A stretch of DNA of 64,000 bases from Canibacter zhuwentaonis. Its GTDB lineage: Bacteria > Actinomycetota > Actinomycetes > Actinomycetales > Microbacteriaceae. Each line of letters begins with the position of its first letter. Position 1 is the first letter of the stretch. A program made the position numbers and the translations under genes. The stretch is taken from assembly GCF_018531145.1 (NCBI RefSeq), contig NZ_JAHDSZ010000004.1, positions 62,001-126,000 of the forward strand, read 5' to 3'. The notes below the pieces were generated by a model that did not search any database, had not been told where the DNA came from, and saw only the letters and a list, made by a program, of their open reading frames with translations. This document shows positions 5,297 to 56,215 of the stretch, piece after piece.

Positions 5297-5668
5297 TTTC
5301 CTGTGGGGCGTGCTTGCAATGCGGGTCATGGATACAGCGTCGCTCCCGTGACGCGTGGGCGGCGCAGGTTTCCTAGAGTGAGCTGAGCGTGTGGCATCTT
5401 TGAATGCGCGGTTGCACCGAGGCGCGGACGAGCTGCGGAGTTGAGTGTGCGGCTGCTTTGTGAGGATCGTCCGCAGCGCGGGCGGTGAGCACTCCGTCTA
5501 TCCCGCGCCGCGCGAGAGTCGAGGGATTGATTCGTTTGTGATTCCTTATTGATAGTAAGAAGTGTTATTAATTGGGGACAGAATGCTGCCAATTTAAACT
5601 TGTTTGGTTATGCTGTAGTTATTGCTTAGGAAAACCTATTCAACAAGGAAGATTGAAACGAGGAGACA
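5297..5668. other. intergenic spacer nrdF - alcohol dehydrogenase
   Basis: A 372-base spacer with no frame that looks coding on either strand. The first 230 bases are GC-rich without a clear terminator. The last 130 are AT-richer and must hold the promoter of the dehydrogenase, but no confident -35/-10 pair can be named. A strong ribosome site (GAGGAGA) precedes the next gene. Confidence 0.5.
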
Positions 5669-6742
5669 ATGAAGGCAATCACATATTACGGCGATCACGA
5701 CATTCGATTTGAAGAGCGTGAAAAGCCCAAAATCATTCATCCGACTGACGCGATTGTGAAGGTTACCAAAACCACAATTTGCGGCACTGATCTTGGCATC
5801 TACAAGGGTAAAAACCCCGAGATTGAAGAGACGGCTCGCAAAGTTGAGGGAGAGTGGAACGGTCGTATTCTGGGGCACGAGGGAATTGGCGTAGTCGAAG
5901 AGGTTGGCGATGCTGTGACCGGCATTAAAGTTGGCGACAAAGTGCTCATTTCCTGTATTTCGCGCTGCGGCATCTGCGATAACTGTCAGGAGCGGCTGTA
6001 CGCGCACTGTCGCAACGGCGGCGGTTGGATCATGGGGTACATGATCGACGGCACGCAGGCCGAATACGTGCGCACGCCTTTCGCCGATAACTCGCTGTAC
6101 CTGTTGCCAGAAGATCTTGATGAAGATGTTGCGGTGTTTTTATCAGACGCGCTGCCAACCGGTCACGAGATTGGGGTACTGAGCGGTGAGGTTAAACCCG
6201 GTAAAAACGTGTTGATTGTTGGCGCTGGTCCGGTGGGTATGGGTGTTTTACTAACGGCTCAGCTGTATTCGCCCGGGTCAATTATCGTGGCTGATATGAA
6301 CGAAAATCGCCTCAAAATGGCTCTTGAGATGGGGGCAACTCACGTTATTAATCCGGCCAAAGATGATCTGGGCGAGCTGATTGCGCAGGTTACTGGCGGG
6401 CGCGGCGTGGATGTTGCGATTGAGGCCGTCGGGCTGCCAGCTACCTGGGAGCTTGCCGCCGCTCACGTGAAAGAGGGCGGTAATATCGCCGTTGTTGGTG
6501 TGCACGGCAAACCGGTCGAGTTGGAACTGCAAAAGCTGTGGATCAAGAACCTCACGATTACAACCGGTCTTGTTAGTGCGTACAGCACGGGCACGCTGCT
6601 GAAGGCCGTGCAGAACAGCGACATTCCGATCGGCACTCTGGCGACGCACCACTTTAAGTGGAGCGAGTTTGAGAAAGCCTGGGATGTGTTTATTAACGCT
6701 GACGAGCATAAGTCGATGAAGGTCGTTATTGAAGCTGAGTAG
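5669..6742 (+). CDS. zinc-dependent alcohol dehydrogenase, medium-chain family
   Basis: A 357-residue MDR-family NAD(P)-dependent dehydrogenase. The catalytic zinc site is visible as CGTD (Cys38) and the downstream GHE motif; the structural zinc lobe has Cys residues in CISRCGICDNCQ and AHC. The Rossmann fold is VGAGPVGMG near residue 190, and the acidic residue in VADMNEN at the end of beta-2 favours NAD. ATG 5669 follows GAGGAGA. Monocistronic, ending in a strong bidirectional hairpin. Substrate is unknown: secondary alcohols, butanediol or a sugar alcohol are all possible. Confidence 0.9.
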   Translation: MKAITYYGDHDIRFEEREKPKIIHPTDAIVKVTKTTICGTDLGIYKGKNPEIEETARKVEGEWNGRILGHEGIGVVEEVGDAVTGIKVGDKVLISCISRCGICDNCQERLYAHCRNGGGWIMGYMIDGTQAEYVRTPFADNSLYLLPEDLDEDVAVFLSDALPTGHEIGVLSGEVKPGKNVLIVGAGPVGMGVLLTAQLYSPGSIIVADMNENRLKMALEMGATHVINPAKDDLGELIAQVTGGRGVDVAIEAVGLPATWELAAAHVKEGGNIAVVGVHGKPVELELQKLWIKNLTITTGLVSAYSTGTLLKAVQNSDIPIGTLATHHFKWSEFEKAWDVFINADEHKSMKVVIEAE

Positions 6743-6813: not shown

Positions 6814-7104
6814 CTAGAGTGCATCTCCTAGTTTGCGTTCCAGTTTAATTCGTTTCCGGTTTAGTCGAGCTAGGGTAAAGGTGTGCTGAGCGATGAGCTT
6901 GCCGATCTCTGTAAGCGATGGCAGGTGGCGGTTTGAGAGTTCTTGATCAATTTCTTCCTCACGCCCGTCTGCTTTCATCTCTTCAATCAATAATTGCGCT
7001 TTTTGCACAGAATCTTGCGATAGTGGATTAGCGGCGATCTCCGCTTTCACCGCATCCAACTCATCACGAAGCTGTGTGCTATCTTTCTTCCCAAACAATA
7101 TCAT
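6814..7104 (-). CDS. small coiled-coil hypothetical protein
   Basis: A 96-residue charged protein starting at ATG 7104 behind AGAGG. Two helical, coiled-coil-like stretches are evident: residues about 8-50 (STQLRDELDAVKAEI onward, rich in Glu/Lys/Ala) and 68-95 (basic, ARLNRKRIKLERKL). No signal peptide or membrane segment. Family not recognised. It faces the dehydrogenase across a strong hairpin and is divergent from the peptide/two-component operon. Confidence 0.65.
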   Translation of the reverse strand: MILFGKKDSTQLRDELDAVKAEIAANPLSQDSVQKAQLLIEEMKADGREEEIDQELSNRHLPSLTEIGKLIAQHTFTLARLNRKRIKLERKLGDAL

Positions 7105-7224
7105 CGACCTCTTATCCTTTGCGTATCTGGTCAGCTGTGCTGAGCGGTCTTATGAGTGTGCAAATTGGCATGGTCGCGCTCTTTGTCGCAATTGTTTCCA
7201 TGATACTATGAAAGGGTCGCGGCA

Positions 7225-7309
7225 CAACACCGATAAAATTCGTGGTACAACCCTGATATTTATCGGTGTCGACAATTTTCAGCAGGCTGGTAGGCTCGAA
7301 GAGCATAAA
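7225..7309 (+). promoter_or_regulatory. inverted-repeat operator and -10 of the peptide/two-component operon
   Basis: Perfect 11-base inverted arms ACACCGATAAA (7227-7237) and TTTATCGGTGT (7259-7269) frame a 21-base centre containing ACCCTGATATT (7250-7260). A -10-like CATAAA lies at 7304-7309, about 44 bases from the inner arm. A homologous element with the same arm spacing lies at 10295-10339. Probably the binding site of the response regulator encoded just downstream; that role is inference. Confidence 0.65.
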
Positions 7310-7339
7310 AAAACCGGACGATGTAGAAAGGTTGCGGTG

Positions 7340-7555
7340 ATGAAAATGATCATGTTGGCACAGAAGAATGGTTCTCGTTTGCTGGCGCTAGCAACGGCTG
7401 GACTGTTGGGTTTGGGGCTAGCTGTCGTTCCAAGCACGGTTGCGCTTGCCAGGGAGCAAAAAATCAGTGGGGATAGCAGGGTTACGGTGATGCCTAGCCA
7501 CGGTGACGTATTGTGTAGAATATTTCCATATTTTCCTATGTGCAAGAAGAAGTGA
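7340..7555 (+). CDS. secreted small peptide precursor, putative signalling peptide for the adjacent two-component system
   Basis: A 71-residue precursor from ATG 7340, 9 bases after AGAAAGG. The upstream in-frame extension to 7076 is rejected because it has no protein character and crosses the operator. Residues 1-37 are a clear Sec signal peptide: basic start, hydrophobic LLALATAGLLGLGLAVV core, and ALA-R cleavage site. The predicted mature 34-mer ends DVLCRIFPYFPMCKKK, with two Cys eight residues apart that could form a disulfide or thioester loop, and a basic tail. The stop overlaps the kinase start as TGATG, so the two are translationally coupled. Pheromone role inferred from context; no homologue recognised. 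Confidence 0.7.
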   Translation: MKMIMLAQKNGSRLLALATAGLLGLGLAVVPSTVALAREQKISGDSRVTVMPSHGDVLCRIFPYFPMCKKK

Positions 7556-8703
7556 TGCGTGAGGGAAAGCTCGAAGATTTTCGCCGTATCGCGCGTGCGC
7601 GGGCGAGGGGCTATAAGCTGACATATTTTCTTGTCGCTGCCATCATTGTGCTTTTCGAGCTGTTGTTCATTGCAGTCGGTGATTTGCCCCGGTTGGATAC
7701 GGCGATTGTGCTGGCAGGATATGCTCTGGTATTAACTGTAGCTCCTTGGATCGGGCTTGTAGGGGATCTTCTTTATGTCACGCTTTTTGTGGGCATGAAT
7801 TTATACGGCTATGAATCATCCTTTTCTTTTCCGGTGTTTGGCGTATTTCTGATTGTTGTGGTCTGGCTTATTAGGCATCATTCAATCGCGGCAATCTCAC
7901 TACTCGCAGGAGTTTCTTTACTTGGGATTCTGCTCAGCGAAAATCCTTTGGTACGGACAGTGAGTGAGATTGTTGTAATTGTAATCGTGCTTAGTGTTGG
8001 ATTCACGCTAAGAGTGTTTAATGATAGAAAAGGTATTTCTGAGCGCTCCCTCGCGACTGCTCGGCAAGAATCACGCAGAGCGCTGGTGTCTGTGCGAAGT
8101 GAGTTAGCCGCCTGGTTGCATGACACAATCGCAAAAGACCTTGCCCAAATGGCTATCTCGGCACAGAATCTTGCGGCAGCTCACCCCGAGCTCGCACACG
8201 AGATGGAATCGCTGACAACGATTGCTCAGGACGCTTCTCGCCGTCTGCGCCCGATGATTATGGATTTGAGGTTTTCCGTAGCTGCGCCGAGTTTGCATGC
8301 CGCAGTGAAAGAGTCTGCGTCCATGCTGCGTTCCCGCTCCATAGTGCTCAATGCAGACATGGTGTCCGATATTGACCTGTTACTTTCTCGGCAAGCTATG
8401 CTCACGGCGTCACTGTTTGTGCGCGAGACAGCTACAAACGCACTGAAATATGGGCAAGCGTCAAGTGCGATAGAGCTTTACGTGGATCTTAACGATGACG
8501 AAGTTGCCTTAATGATGAGCAACCAAATAAGCACAGAGCACACCAATCACGCTTTCACAGGAGGCTTCGGGCTAGCAAATCTGCAATCACGAATCGAGAG
8601 GGAGGGCGGACGCATGAGTTTTGCCTCTACCGGCACTCAATGGATTATTAACGCGACTATCCCCAACTTGCAAAACAGCACCGAAGGAAAAGACGATGAG
8701 TGA
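7555..8703 (+). CDS. membrane sensor histidine kinase, NarL/DegS-type
   Basis: A 382-residue kinase from ATG 7555, overlapping the peptide stop. Residues about 22-160 contain five to six hydrophobic segments and no large extracellular domain, as in peptide-sensing kinases. The HisKA_3 box is AAWLHDTIAKDLAQM with phospho-acceptor His189. The HATPase domain has the N-box RETATNALKYG (about 290) and G-box GGFGLANLQSR (about 336). The final bases overlap the response regulator start. Likely ligand is the coupled upstream peptide, by inference. Confidence 0.9.
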   Translation: MREGKLEDFRRIARARARGYKLTYFLVAAIIVLFELLFIAVGDLPRLDTAIVLAGYALVLTVAPWIGLVGDLLYVTLFVGMNLYGYESSFSFPVFGVFLIVVVWLIRHHSIAAISLLAGVSLLGILLSENPLVRTVSEIVVIVIVLSVGFTLRVFNDRKGISERSLATARQESRRALVSVRSELAAWLHDTIAKDLAQMAISAQNLAAAHPELAHEMESLTTIAQDASRRLRPMIMDLRFSVAAPSLHAAVKESASMLRSRSIVLNADMVSDIDLLLSRQAMLTASLFVRETATNALKYGQASSAIELYVDLNDDEVALMMSNQISTEHTNHAFTGGFGLANLQSRIEREGGRMSFASTGTQWIINATIPNLQNSTEGKDDE

Positions 8704-9355
8704 AAATATTCGCGTCCTCATTGCTGATGATGATCAGATTATTCGTGAATGTCTCGCCAACCTGTTACATCTACAAGAAGGCATCACCGTGCTAGCAGCA
8801 GTAGCAGACGGCAGTAAAGCACTGCGGATACTTGCCGATAAAAGCGTGGACGTGGTGTTACTGGATGTGGATATGCCCGTTCTCGACGGGATCAGCACCG
8901 CCAAAGAAATTGCGCGATTGTATCCCAGTGTTGATGTTGTGATGCTCACCTCCTTTGAGCATGAGGATTCGCTCGGGCAATCCCTAGCCAGTAACGTGCG
9001 CGGGTTTCTGACTAAAGATATCCCTATCGCCGAGCTTGCCCAGCTGCTTAAATATGCGCATGGCGGACAGCGGGTATTCGGACAGCGTCCCACCCAGATA
9101 CTCGCAGAATCTTATATGGCATTGGGTAAAAATGATCCTGCTTATGACGATTTTCGGCAAAGAGTAGAGCAGTTACCTGATTATCTACGCGCCGTGTTTG
9201 ATCTGCTCATCCAAGCCTTGCCCAATAAGATCATCGCTCGGAAGCTTGGAATTACTGAAGCTACTGCACGTTCTTACATTTCCGAACTCTTCATCGCCAC
9301 TGGCTTTACCAACCGGGGTGAACTCACCATCACTGCCATCAAAGCAGGATACTAA
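8696..9355 (+). CDS. response regulator, NarL/LuxR-type
   Basis: A 219-residue regulator from ATG 8696, overlapping the kinase by 8 bases. Receiver domain: acidic pocket ADDD, phospho-acceptor Asp57 in LLDVDMP, switch Thr in MLTSFE and Lys in LTKDIP. The C-terminal LuxR-type HTH (about 155-215, ALPNKIIARKLGITEATAR) is divergent but keeps the helix layout. It most plausibly binds the inverted repeats at 7227-7269 and 10297-10339. The operon ends in a hairpin at 9364-9399. Confidence 0.92.
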   Translation: MSENIRVLIADDDQIIRECLANLLHLQEGITVLAAVADGSKALRILADKSVDVVLLDVDMPVLDGISTAKEIARLYPSVDVVMLTSFEHEDSLGQSLASNVRGFLTKDIPIAELAQLLKYAHGGQRVFGQRPTQILAESYMALGKNDPAYDDFRQRVEQLPDYLRAVFDLLIQALPNKIIARKLGITEATARSYISELFIATGFTNRGELTITAIKAGY

Positions 9356-9363
9356 AGCATACG

Positions 9364-9399
9364 AGTTGGCGGGTACAAGACAACTTGAACCCGCCAACT
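9364..9399. terminator. hairpin between response regulator and small membrane gene
   Basis: Arms AGTTGGCGGGT (9364-9374) and ACCCGCCAACT (9389-9399) are perfect complements around a 14-base loop, 8 bases after the regulator stop. Neither side has a long T-run, so termination strength is uncertain. It separates two convergent operons. Confidence 0.6.
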
Positions 9400-9417
9400 A
9401 AAGAAGAAACAACAGAT

Positions 9418-9585
9418 TTAACTCCGAGACTTAGCCTGTTCTTTCCAAAGTATCAATGTTTTGGGAATGGCCAATACCGCTGCTGCCAGCATGATGAACT
9501 CGGCATATTGGATACGACAGAGAACAAGGATCAGACCAAAGAGTAGTAACAAACCTGGTGCTATGTACCCGTACCTTTTAATCAT
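9418..9585 (-). CDS. small two-helix membrane protein, putative bacteriocin immunity protein
   Basis: A 55-residue protein from ATG 9585 (MIKRYGYIAP), about 10 bases after GGGAG; a TTG at 9609 would add eight residues and overlap the preceding gene. Two hydrophobic segments (about 8-26 and 30-46) are followed by a basic tail KEQAKSRS. It sits 5 bases after the stop of the secreted bacteriocin-like gene on the same strand, the usual place for an immunity gene. No sequence family recognised, so immunity is inference from size, topology and position. Confidence 0.6.
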   Translation of the reverse strand: MIKRYGYIAPGLLLLFGLILVLCRIQYAEFIMLAAAVLAIPKTLILWKEQAKSRS

Positions 9586-9590
9586 TATCG

Positions 9591-10148
9591 CTATTCTCCC
9601 AAGCCACAAGCTGCCATCACTGCAGTGATTCCGAACAGTTCAAGCAATGCTTTTTTAACATCGGATCCAGCAGCCTTGGCTCCTCCGTTAATAGCTTGTT
9701 TAAGTGCTGCCGATTTGCTCATTTTTGCAGCACGTGCTTTTTTATAGATGTTCCAAGCTGTTTTTACAAAGGGGATAGCACCTCCGACTGCTTTAATCGC
9801 TGATTTGACTTTCAGGATTTTTGCTGGTGTAAAGTTTGTGATAATCGCATATCCGATAGCAGATCCGCATGCTAGCCAATTGACTCTTGTCGTAGGTAGA
9901 TCGTCATACCATTCGAGTAGAGCTTGCTGGTCACCAGACAAAAGAACGTCATCCGGGATGTTCTCGATGAACTGCATTGCTCGAGCTAGTTCCGTTTCAT
10001 TGAAGAAGAGTTCTTCAAATTCTGGCTCGTAATTATTCTCTGCTGCAATGGTTTGCGTGCTGTTTGGCTGATACTCTACGGCAGAAGCAGCGCTCAAACT
10101 TGTAAACGAAAGAGCTAATGTAATTGTTCCCGAAAGTAGGGTGTTCAT
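9591..10148 (-). CDS. secreted bacteriocin-like protein (streptococcin A-M57-like, tentative)
   Basis: A 185-residue exported protein from ATG 10148. Signal peptide: hydrophobic GTITLALSFTSL core with ASA-V cleavage near residue 23. The next 75 residues are strongly acidic. The C-terminal 85 are glycine-rich, hydrophobic and basic: WLACGSAIGYAI, AKILKVKSAIKAVGG, a Lys/Ala-rich helix, and an end in MAACGLGE, with one Cys at each end. The layout recalls streptococcin A-M57-type secreted bacteriocins, from memory only. Its Shine-Dalgarno GGAG (10167-10170) is 18 bases from ATG but 6 from an ATA codon (10158-10160) that would add the expected basic N-region. The promoter carries the operator shared with the peptide operon. 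Confidence 0.65.
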   Translation of the reverse strand: MNTLLSGTITLALSFTSLSAASAVEYQPNSTQTIAAENNYEPEFEELFFNETELARAMQFIENIPDDVLLSGDQQALLEWYDDLPTTRVNWLACGSAIGYAIITNFTPAKILKVKSAIKAVGGAIPFVKTAWNIYKKARAAKMSKSAALKQAINGGAKAAGSDVKKALLELFGITAVMAACGLGE

Positions 10149-10254
10149 TGATTTTTTTATTGTTATCTCCTTAACATTTGTTTTGAAGTGTAACGGTGGG
10201 TGTGCGGTCTGTTTGCTGTTGTTTTGTTTGTGTAGAGCAAAACAACTGGACTCA

Positions 10255-10339
10255 TCTATAGCCACTACAAGAAAAACACAACTACGGTGCTGAGCATCAC
10301 CGACAAATGTTGGGATGTGACCCTGATATTCGTCAGGGT
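10255..10339 (-). promoter_or_regulatory. operator and -10 of the bacteriocin-like operon
   Basis: Bases 10295-10339 match 7225-7269 at 31 of 45 positions by hand count, including an 11-base identical run ACCCTGATATT. The half-sites CGACAAA (10301-10307) and TTCGTCA (10329-10335) start 28 bases apart, as in the first element. A minus-strand -10 (TATAGA, complement at 10255-10260) lies about 46 bases from the inner half-site, close to the 44 of the other promoter. Confidence 0.65.
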
Positions 10340-10342
10340 ACG

Positions 10343-11027
10343 CTAGATAACCAGCAGCTCACGTTTGTCATATACCGATTCGGCGGGTTCACTCCCGTTG
10401 CGGATCGCACGATCAAGCGCCATAATCAATGCGATGATGCCATCGATTTCCTCGGTGGATTTGGTTTTGTCGGGTTTGATGTTTTCTGCTGGGTATTGCT
10501 GGACAGTGATGTTGTCTGTCATCCACGCCAGCACCGGATGCCCAGCACGCGCGAGCCTCCCATCCAGCGCGAGTCGCATTAGTTCTTTGCTGGCGGGGCT
10601 CATGTTTTTGAAGCCTTGCTCGAACGGCACGACCGTAAACCCCAGACCTTTGAGGTTCTGCGACATCTGCACCGCACCTCAACGGTCGTAGGCGATTTCC
10701 TGAATGTTGTAGGACAGGCTGAGTTGTTCGGTGGTGTGCCGTAATGCACCACATTGTTCTCAGTGGTCTCCAGGAGCCCTTGCCGGCGCCACAGGTCATA
10801 GGGCACAACGCAGGTCAAGGGTGTCTAGCGCACTTCCTGCTTCACCCACTGATTGAGCCGCAACTGCCGAAACGCGTTCTCCTCGGCCGGATTCTATTTC
10901 GTGGACTCGCACGCATCCCGCACATTCTGTATGGGCACGGTCACCCCGAGGGACGGGGGTTGGCTTTCCGCCAGGTTGCGTGCGGCGCCGGAACCTTTGG
11001 TCATCACGTCAAACAGTTTCCGGTTTG
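10343..11027 (-). pseudogene. phage terminase large subunit, decayed remnant
   Basis: Reading from 11027 downwards, family blocks appear in shifting frames: NRKLFDVMTKGSGA, WRKANP, SLGVTVPI, NPAEENAFRQLRLNQW, CVVPYDLW, NIQEIAYDR, then an intact 109-residue end from ATG 10672 with GFTVVPFEQGFKNMSP and KPDKTKSTEEIDGI. In-frame stops replace conserved Trp at 10679-10681 and 10825-10827 and a Gln at 10894-10896, and there are at least two frameshifts and a deletion. It is the ATPase/nuclease packaging motor of a tailed phage. No other phage gene is visible nearby. Confidence 0.9.
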
Positions 11028-37292: not shown

Positions 37293-38872
37293 TGAGCGGA
37301 AATAACATGAGCGGAAAACAAGTTTTTAATCTCCCGGATGTTGGCGAGGGGCTTACTGAGGCCGAGCTGGTGAGCTGGCAGGTTGCTGTTGGTGATGAGA
37401 TCGCGCTGAATCAGGTTGTGTGCGAAATTGAAACCGCAAAATCGCTTGTTGAGCTGCCGTCGCCTTTTGCCGGTAGGATAACGGATCTGCTTGCGCAGCC
37501 GGGGGATACGGTGTCTGTTGGCGCGCCAATTATGCAGGTTGCCGCAGCCGGTGCGATTCTGGAGGGTAACAGCCAGGCGGCGGATAGCAGCGTGGCGGAT
37601 GGCAGCGTGGCGGCGCAGGCAGCGCCCGAGATAATCGGCGCAGCAGTTGCGGGTACTACTGGGGGCGCAGCAGCCGCAGCAGAGCTTACGCATAGCGATT
37701 TAGTGCAGCAGAGCGTAACCGATGCGGATGCTGCGGTGAGTGAACCTAAAAAGAATGCGGTGCTTGTTGGGTACGGCACAGCGGGCGCGGTGAAGAGTCG
37801 CCGCAGAGGTGGCGCAAAAGTCGCTGCTCGTGATAAGGTGACGGCAGAGACCACAGCGGCGCAGGGCGGCGCGGCGATGGCTGTTTTGTCGACCGTGCAG
37901 AACAGTGTGCCAGCCGCACAGGCGCCGGTTGCGGCGCAGGGCACCCCGGCACAGCAGCCCACAACCCCGGTGCAGTCAGTATCACAAGCGCAGCAAATCG
38001 GCGCGGCGCGGGTGCTCGCAAAACCCCCGGTTCGTAAGCTCGCAAAAGATCTTGGTATTGATATTACTGCGGTTGTTGGCACGGGAAGCATCGGCGATAT
38101 TTCACGTGATGATGTTATCCGCTACACAAACAGCGCCAGGGGCAGCACATCCGCCGCCCGCGTCGGAATTACCGAGGTGCTCGAGCGCGAAACCGTGATT
38201 CCTGTGAAGGGCATTCGCAAGCAGATTGCGAAGGCGATGTCACAGAGCGCGTTTACTGCGCCGCACGTTAGTGTTTTCACCGAGGTTGATGCCACCCGCA
38301 CGATGGAATACGTGAAGCGGTTGAAGAACTCCAGTGATTTTGCGGGTGTTAGAGTTTCGCCGCTGCTGGTGTTTGCGAAAGCTATGATCTGGGCGGTGCG
38401 GCGTAATCCGCTGGTTAACGCGACTTTTACGGAGCATGAAATAACCGTGCACAATTATGTGAATCTGGGAATTGCGGCGGCGACCCCGCGCGGTCTGCTC
38501 GTGCCAAACATCAAAGACGCGCAGAATATGTCGATGCTGGAATTGGCAAAAGCTATTGGCGAGCTGACTAGCACTGCGCGGGAAGGCAAAACCACCCCGG
38601 CAGAAATGGCGAATGGCACGATCACAGTGACGAATATCGGTGTTTTTGGTATGGATACTGGCACGCCGATTATTAACCCGGGCGAGTCTGCGATCGTTGT
38701 TATGGGCACTATTAAGCAGAAACCGTGGGTTGTTGACGGTGCTATCGTGCCGCGTATGGTCACAACTGTTGGTGGATCGTTCGACCACCGGGTTGTTGAC
38801 GGCGATGTTATTTCCGCCTTTGTTGCTGATGTTGCGGCTATCCTCGAAGAGCCAGCGCTGCTATTAGACTAG
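37292..38872 (+). CDS. 2-oxoacid dehydrogenase dihydrolipoamide acyltransferase (E2)
   Basis: A 526-residue protein from ATG 37292 (a second ATG at 37307 is possible). One lipoyl domain (about 10-85) with the lipoylated Lys50 in [10 protein letters not shown]; a long Ala/Gln-rich linker (about 90-235); a peripheral subunit-binding domain (about 241-278, [15 protein letters not shown]); and the catalytic domain ending in DHRVVDGD with His499 and Asp503. It transfers the acyl group to CoA. No E3 gene lies in the window, so lipoamide dehydrogenase must be encoded elsewhere. Confidence 0.95.
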
Positions 38873-55399: not shown

Positions 55400-56215
55400 G
55401 TGACGGTTGGGCAAACCCCGCACATTGAAGTTGAGCTAAAACTTGAAGCGTCGTTAACTGCCAAGCTGCCTGAGTTTTTTGGTCACGATCTTGCTGTGCT
55501 GGCGCGCGAAGAGCACGTTTTGCGCGCGCGGTACTACGACACTCCGGCGCGCGATTTGGCACGGGCACAGCTTGCTGTGAGATACCGCGAGGGCGGTAAA
55601 GATGCTGGTTGGCATCTGAAACAGCGGATAACTAGCGCAAAACAGGCAGAATACAACTGGAGCGGAGCAAAAGATGAGCTCCCGCGTGATGCGGCGGATG
55701 CTATTAACGGTTTTGTGCCCGGAGCGGTCGCGCAGCTTGAGCCGCTCGCCGAGATTGTGACGCTGCGCAAAGTTCTGGTGCTCGGCACACCCGAGGGTGC
55801 GCCCCTTTATGAGATAGCGGATGACACCGTGCACTCTCAGGAGTTGTGCACGGGTGTTGTCCGTGCTTGGCGAGAGTGGGAGATTGAAGCACTCACTGAG
55901 AGTTGCGAGCAGCTGCCGTGGCTGCGCGAGACGCTTGCTGCAAACGGCGCTTATGATTCTTTGGCGGGCTCAAAAATCGCCCGTGCCGCGGGAGTTCTGT
56001 TGCCCACAGCGCTGACCAAGCAGGAGTCGCCGCAGCTCATTGCGGCGCTTGCGCTGCAGGAGGTTGCTGACCTGTGGGCTGGCAGGATGCCGCAGCTTGA
56101 TCTCGTGCCGTGGTTTGACGCTGCGGCGGGAGCGTATCCGCTAGCACCGCAGCAGGAGGCACAAATTGCGGCGCTGCGCGCGCACGTTCAGCAGTTATTG
56201 GAAAAAGGCGAGTAG
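55400..56215 (+). CDS. CYTH-domain protein
   Basis: A 271-residue protein from GTG 55400, 3 bases after the secreted-protein stop. The CYTH ExExK signature is IEVELKLE; tunnel residues follow as RARYYDTPARDLARAQLAVRYREGG, WHLKQR, and WEIEAL (EEE-like). The C-terminal 75 residues are helical and not a full CHAD domain. CYTH enzymes hydrolyse or bind triphosphates such as thiamine triphosphate or inorganic tripolyphosphate; specific substrate unknown. Confidence 0.88.
   Translation: MTVGQTPHIEVELKLEASLTAKLPEFFGHDLAVLAREEHVLRARYYDTPARDLARAQLAVRYREGGKDAGWHLKQRITSAKQAEYNWSGAKDELPRDAADAINGFVPGAVAQLEPLAEIVTLRKVLVLGTPEGAPLYEIADDTVHSQELCTGVVRAWREWEIEALTESCEQLPWLRETLAANGAYDSLAGSKIARAAGVLLPTALTKQESPQLIAALALQEVADLWAGRMPQLDLVPWFDAAAGAYPLAPQQEAQIAALRAHVQQLLEKGE

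Follow-up and report, generated by a model that had tools for sequence, protein, structure and literature searches.

Two convergent operons of Canibacter zhuwentaonis, one coding for a small peptide, a histidine kinase and a response regulator, the other for a bacteriocin-like protein, here called P0004, and a small membrane protein, are preceded by similar control elements at positions 7225-7269 and 10295-10339 of the 64,000-nucleotide stretch of DNA analysed here (the window), which raises the question whether the two operons belong to one regulon and what would switch it on. The genus Canibacter is placed within the Microbacteriaceae in PMC8165742, and the genome that carries the window (G000) has a size of 1.41 Mb. 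In our judgement, the locus probably represents a peptide-pheromone two-component switch with autoinduction, which would govern a bacteriocin regulon.

Direct comparison of the two elements reveals 31 identical positions out of 45, including an uninterrupted 11-base run, ACCCTGATATT, at 7250 and 10320, and both elements contain the half-sites CCGAYAAA and ATTYRTCRG, whose starts lie 28 nt apart (7230/7258 and 10300/10328). These likenesses had been put forward in a preliminary description of the locus, and they are borne out by the sequence. Within the window, the runner-up match to either element on the + strand reaches 24/45, and the best reverse-strand match elsewhere is 27/45, at 55824, a site rejected as a control site because it falls within a 271-aa reading frame. 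In a control of 300 Markov-random sequences of 128 kb each, the best match to the peptide-side element had a mean of 24.9 and a maximum of 28, and none of the 300 attained 31/45.

More precisely, each element is made of two tandem imperfect 20-bp palindromes (d1 and d2), 23 nt apart from start to start, with a consensus close to ACACCGACATATGTCGGTGT, the entire peptide-side element being also one long inverted repeat. A position weight matrix was built from relatives only, namely the modules L002, L003 and L021 described below plus one site each from the genomes G693 and G597, the window not being included. Scanned with this matrix at spacings of 21-25, the window has as its two top pairs the bacteriocin-side one, at 39.9 (d1, on the P0004-facing side, at 10297-10316, 20.8; d2 at 10320-10339, 19.1; both given on the + strand), and the peptide-side one, at 34.7 (d1 at 7227-7246, 13.1; d2 at 7250-7269, 21.6, the top single site of the window; + strand). 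No pair outside the two elements exceeds 17.7, and 200 random 64-kb sequences, scanned at spacing 23, gave a best score of 14.5. With cmsearch, 7227-7269 scores 56.5 bits, the element itself being among the five training rows of the model. Single palindromes were also considered as regulon markers: those at 38624 (score 19.3) and at C20:27465 (E 0.02, operator model R1) were rejected, since they lie within a coding frame and a gyrase-like frame, respectively. Only the tandem pair is specific.

Downstream of the peptide-side element, the first gene (7340-7555, + strand) is translated into a 71-aa precursor with a hydrophobic leader (segment 14-32) and the C-terminus CRIFPYFPMCKKK, in which CRIFPYFPMC is followed by KKK; its product is the proposed pheromone. 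The stop codon of this gene is overlapped by the start of a membrane histidine kinase gene of HisKA_3 type (7552-8703, + strand), a start suggested by alignment, the frame being open from 7540. The kinase has five hydrophobic segments and matches the profiles HisKA_3 (7.1e-4) and HATPase_c (0.05), both below the cut-off, as well as NarQ/NarX (1.1e-10/4.1e-8). The third gene (8696-9355, + strand) codes for a NarL/LuxR-type response regulator, with matches above the cut-off to Response_reg (1.4e-25) and Sigma70_r4_2 (5.2e-7) and a match just below it to GerE (1.8e-4); it is 81% identical to its L002 counterpart and 79% to that of L003. Kinase and regulator display the traits of a NarL/FixJ response regulator paired with a HisKA_3 kinase. 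On the opposite strand, P0004 (9591-10148, - strand; family alignment A6) has a C-terminal domain that is helical in a structure model and enclosed between two Cys, and is followed by a 55-aa protein with two hydrophobic segments (9418-9585, - strand), the proposed immunity partner, which has a homologue at L002 9905-10057. The overall makeup that had been described holds in all its parts: the operator is shared, one operon codes for peptide, kinase and regulator, and the secreted-protein operon that faces it has a control site of the same kind. Between the convergent operons, an inverted repeat at 9364-9399 with 16-nt arms, 94% complementary, is likely a two-way terminator.

As for the promoters, TAGGCT (7291-7296, + strand), starting 22 nt past the operator, is a probable -10 hexamer, in line with the recurrence of TAGNNT 21-22 nt past the operator in the window, L003 and L021, three of the four modules compared; in L002 the distance is 29 nt. 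The preliminary description had placed this hexamer at CATAAA (7304), which the relatives do not keep. For the bacteriocin-like operon, TATAGA (10255-10260, - strand, read from 10260 to 10255) fits a -10 and is taken as a candidate.

The same operon of peptide, kinase and regulator, with the same double operator ahead of it, is found in both modules of Canibacter zhoujuaniae (genome G002; L003/L020 and L021) and in L002, a module of the Actinomycetaceae strain G1231 (family f3). The identity to the window amounts to 77% for the operator versus 49/52% for the flanks in L002, 79% versus 72/67% in L003, and 63% versus 51/50% in L021. The conservation in relatives on which the initial proposal had been staked is found for the peptide-side operator, which is kept in L002, from a different family, as well as in the two modules of C. 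zhoujuaniae. The polarity is likewise constant in the window, L002, L003 and L021: d2 is the palindrome nearer to the two-component gene, and d1 the one nearer to the secreted gene. In the three related modules, a single operator is flanked by the peptide operon on one side and by a divergent secreted gene on the other; the window lacks a secreted gene in that divergent position, and its bacteriocin-like operon comes with a separate operator. In both Canibacter species, the module is bordered by a 96-aa protein, similar in the two (L003 6456-6746; window 6814-7104), and the secreted gene found in C. zhoujuaniae between this protein and the operator is missing in the window.

Operator and kinase also occur together across the genus. 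Among the five Canibacter genomes, the kinase is present in G000 and G002 (two copies), G004 has a weak match only (7.8e-11, 27%), and G001 and G003 have none at 1e-10. Strong matches to the operator model R1 are found in the kinase-bearing G000 and G002 only: G002 has them at exactly two places, one per module, and G000 at the two window sites, at C12:225836 (E 1.7e-5) and, weakly, in a coding frame (E 0.02). In G001, G003 and G004, the best operator E-values are 1.56, 0.34 and 0.38. Four of the five training elements of R1 come from G000 and G002, where it scores best, and it is the silence of the other three genomes that is not circular.

The system is not a one-off, because its kinase type was matched in 41 of the 213 genomes, and 14 of the 36 genera, of family f3 at 1e-30; since L002, from an Actinomycetaceae bacterium, belongs to f3, this family is probably the Actinomycetaceae. 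Counting the own genome at each rank, the kinase was matched in 2/398 genomes of the own family at 1e-30, in 14/396 of the order at 1e-18, and in 1/396 of the phylum sample at 1e-18, the own genome only. The genome G1266 alone accounts for eight matches, including one fragment (L106-L111, L123). Identity to the L002 kinase is 67% for the kinase of the window, and L126 and L127, both from f3, have kinases 76% identical to the second one of C. zhoujuaniae; these cross-family identities, together with the patchy presence, point to transfer of the module between families.

A survey was then made over 58 modules in 57 loci, a chosen set that takes in some but not all of the 63 listed kinase matches. 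Among its members are nearly duplicate modules (L126/L127, for example) and others with weaker kinases (L050, L057, L058, L064-L066). With an operator matrix fixed on three modules (L002, L003/L020, L021) and a score threshold of 14, an upstream operator was detected in 25/58 modules, or 22/55 outside the training modules, while the background rate (19 hits in 435,639 positions) leads one to expect about 1.4 hits in the 32,077 upstream positions. A partner site at a distance of 22-24 nt accompanies 15 of these 25 operators (12 at 23, 3 at 24). According to our reading of the gene lists, a divergent protein with a signal-like N-terminus is present in 12 of the 25 (L002, L020, L021, L062, L063, L107, L126, L127, L129, L130, L131, L135). 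Outside the upstream windows, 21 further operator sites were recorded, of which those in the window, L059, L112, L123, L125, L134 and L136 also face proteins with such an N-terminus.

The linked cargo varies: it resembles PLA2 in L062 (4.8e-6), C39 in L107 (3.1e-4) and EntV in L131 (2.1e-12) and L123 (2.9e-6), all below the cut-off, and I36 in L135 (2.9e-6, above it). L063 appears to carry a lactococcin-972-type operon (TIGR03608 1.6e-68, TIGR01654 3.9e-11, both below the cut-off; precursor unmatched), which the L112 cargo resembles by eye, with a precursor match to TIGR01653 at 0.054. Eight of ten operator-linked proteins have no Pfam match at E 0.01, nor have five of six further ones at E 0.1 (L002, L003, L021, L059 and L063; L062 was matched). 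Several of the secreted proteins are accompanied by small membrane proteins. In L123 (G1266), a triple operator with 24-nt spacing precedes the EntV-like protein.

On the peptide side, a strict form (C..[hydrophobic]P....C, a CxxFPxLPxC-like end) stands before the kinase in 29/58 modules. Open reading frames ending in the motif make up 29/112 near kinase starts and 6/7192 elsewhere, an enrichment that is descriptive only, because the pattern was written after inspection of the loci L080-L105 and restricts 4 of 10 positions. In the 25 non-redundant cores, this pattern fixes Cys3, Pro7 and Cys12 and limits position 6; at positions left free by it, Leu9 occurs in 14/25 and Pro10 in 18/25. In L059 (G487), an IS-like (insertion-sequence-like) transposase frame, recognized by eye, ends just before the kinase (5534-5930 oriented), with what appears by eye to be a broken peptide remnant beside it; this locus has its operator upstream of a convergent secreted gene.

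With somewhat better than even confidence, these surveys may be taken to delineate a new class of actinobacterial pheromones, in which Sec-exported CxxFPxLPxC-ended peptides would each have their own HisKA_3/NarL pair, share a tandem ACACCGACATATGTCGGTGT-like operator and command exchangeable bacteriocin cargo, thereby forming parallel private channels in the Actinomycetaceae and in Canibacter, with horizontal transfer between these families.

Regarding P0004, the alignment of its small family has two invariant Cys in the five aligned members, and a single-sequence model is all-helical (pLDDT 65). The alignment has no match up to E 1 among PDB sequences, an absence that carries no weight by itself; another member has a lone NCBIfam match at chance level (E 0.038), and the EntV family (NF058576) does not match P0004 up to E 5. 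The N-terminus appears leader-like by eye. The best-placed ribosome site (in 10146-10175, - strand) stands 5 bases before an in-frame ATA, 4 codons upstream of the ATG, and the true start may be this ATA, in which case the leader would gain a basic N-terminus. An origin as a phage gene was considered, phrog_25631 matching the C-terminus (2.9e-20), but was rejected, the phage searches being empty: tblastn over 50,697 phage records returned none, and neither did an IMG/VR scan, which reaches close relatives only. Homologues are found on plasmids of Staphylococcus, Bacillus and others (16 records) and in 2/99 related genomes, own included, a distribution that fits a mobile bacteriocin. In L002, at 9902-10394, a decayed P0004 (in two frames) and the homologue of the small membrane protein occupy the same convergent place in a different family from the window; at the score used, this decayed copy has no operator, so that the bacteriocin-side site of the window has no orthologous site there.

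From what is read directly in the DNA, that is gene order, operators, their conservation and co-occurrence with the kinase, and the peptide motif, the following mechanism is proposed. The 71-aa precursor would be exported by Sec and release a short C-terminal peptide, in which two Cys bracket eight residues (CRIFPYFPMC) and which is probably closed by a disulfide. At sufficient density, the HisKA_3 kinase, whose gene overlaps that of the precursor, would detect this peptide through its membrane part and then phosphorylate the NarL-type regulator. Two regulator dimers are predicted to sit on the tandem 20-bp palindromes, 23 nt or about two helix turns apart, on the same face of the DNA. The regulator would thereby activate its own peptide-kinase-regulator operon in a positive feedback, the operator ahead of this operon being consistent with quorum-sensing autoinduction, and the convergent operon, leading to secretion of the bacteriocin-like P0004, with its presumed killing activity, and to production of the small membrane protein, which may give immunity.

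Several observations weigh against this mechanism. In L002, the peptide gene (7713-8023) is frameshifted in its leader, kinase, regulator and operator being kept. At threshold, 33/58 modules have no upstream operator, and 13 of the 25 with an operator have no convincing divergent secreted gene. The strict peptide is absent from 29/58 modules, seven of which have a looser form (L061, L063, L065, L066, L112, L115, L121), and G693 has an operator and a divergent secreted gene with no room for a peptide before the kinase. A co-evolution of peptide and sensor was sought in 25 modules kept of 29, and was not retained: rho is 0.33, a value reached by 0/999 permutations, yet the catalytic domain gives 0.37, and after removal of the catalytic-domain distance the partial rho between peptide and kinase sensor is 0.13. 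At the two promoters of the window, the distance from operator to candidate -10 differs, 22 nt versus 37 nt. As to P0004, its leader was not flagged by a crude hydropathy scan, the protein has no match in Pfam or NCBIfam up to E 1, its model, a weak one, has no clear match to a solved fold (best Foldseek E 0.79, best VIA-align Z 3.9), and the second genome with a homologue, G065, had no kinase match.

Among the other explanations, the one that survives best, although unlikely, regards the Cys-bracketed peptide as an antimicrobial or kin toxin, and the two-component system as a sensor serving envelope-stress response or self-protection, which would turn on the second bacteriocin as well. Many bacteriocins double as signals, many of the peptides here end in basic residues (KKK, EKHRPHK), and the small membrane proteins beside several secreted proteins would also suit such a toxin; however, the peptide stands directly before the kinase, often overlapping it, across modules while the secreted cargo varies, an arrangement that suits a signal better than it suits cargo. 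Still less probable is that the peptide remains unreleased as a kinase-bound accessory or inhibitor, the kinase reading an environmental cue such as membrane state. That the sensor of this HisKA_3-type kinase consists of membrane segments only, and that no peptide was found before the kinase in L059, L060, L062 and L064, would agree with this proposal, but the conserved part of the peptide is its short, hydrophobic, Cys-bracketed C-terminus, as expected of a processed ligand.

Finally, it is very improbable that the 31/45 match is no working operator and stems from duplicated DNA left behind by a phage or a repeat: the bacteriocin-side element does abut a terminase large-subunit remnant (window 10343-10818, - strand), and a third copy (C12:225836-225877), with no secreted gene seen next to it, lies beside a second one (L032 5882-6187; remnants 83% identical over 193 nt), but a motif trained on other species recovers the bacteriocin-side element, the L002 operator is 77% identical to this element and no closer to the peptide operator of the window, the kinase-less genus genomes show no comparable match, and none of the repeats listed for 7100-10400 links both elements over a greater length. 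The third copy has a spacing of 22 nt, and its surroundings (L032 2313-9208) look by eye like restriction-modification genes: two are methylase-like, one of these being of type I, another is nuclease-like, and a small one resembles DUF2283.

It is from the Firmicutes that quorum sensing by peptides is best known. The pheromone switch proposed here would matter in that a defined peptide motif comes back, together with receptor, regulator and operator, in each of two families, that it offers short, synthesisable candidate signals and reporter promoters, testable at once, and that a scan for the operator motif finds new bacteriocin candidates via their control sites and not via homology. Among the titles and abstract starts listed in ranked searches of the open PMC literature, neither control of actinobacterial bacteriocins by a Cys-pair peptide and a NarL-type two-component system nor actinobacterial peptide control of EntV or lactococcin 972 was found. 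A review of actinobacterial quorum sensing at one point describes signalling generally via cyclic or modified peptides and butyrolactones, with no bacteriocins and no system of such makeup named in the part consulted (PMC4748050).

Compared with known systems, the locus would share with agr (AgrBDCA) a small cyclised signal and two-component sensing. The agr system is characterized by AgrB, a LytTR regulator and a thiolactone; in the operon studied here, no AgrB is seen, the regulator is not of LytTR type, and a Cys pair takes the place of the thiolactone. ComQXPA of Bacillus (ComX-ComP-ComA) likewise has a peptide gene followed by genes for a membrane kinase and a NarL-type regulator, with overlaps between them, and its quorum-sensing logic would be shared as well; a HisKA_3 membrane kinase and a NarL-type regulator do follow the peptide gene here. 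ComX undergoes isoprenylation by ComQ and is not known to have a Cys pair. Unlike that system, the operon of the window (7225-9355) contains no ComQ-like gene, holding peptide, kinase and regulator only, the search for ComQ having been confined to this operon. In a census of comQXPA, as far as its consulted part goes, the system was found in no phylum but Firmicutes (PMC4008528). The cargo, for its part, can be compared with EntV, described as a bacteriocin that needs disulfide formation (PMC6606811, PMC9562342), and with lactococcin 972: the operator-linked cargo of the relatives weakly resembles both, and P0004 has the same layout of leader, pro-region and helical two-Cys domain, although P0004 itself matches neither family.

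With regard to control, a further parallel is regulation of the plantaricin/pneumocin type. Such systems rely on LytTR regulators, double-glycine leaders and ABC exporters; here, the profile search gave no LytTR match but GerE and Sigma70_r4_2, and 7225-10148 holds a Sec-like leader and no exporter-sized gene, with no double-glycine leader. What would be common is an autoinduced peptide, a kinase, a regulator and paired operator repeats just upstream of bacteriocin promoters (PMC2714321), those operators being 9-bp tandem repeats with a 12-bp spacer (PMC2714321). Unlike them, the Canibacter system combines a NarL-type regulator and a Sec-type leader with tandem 20-bp palindromes.

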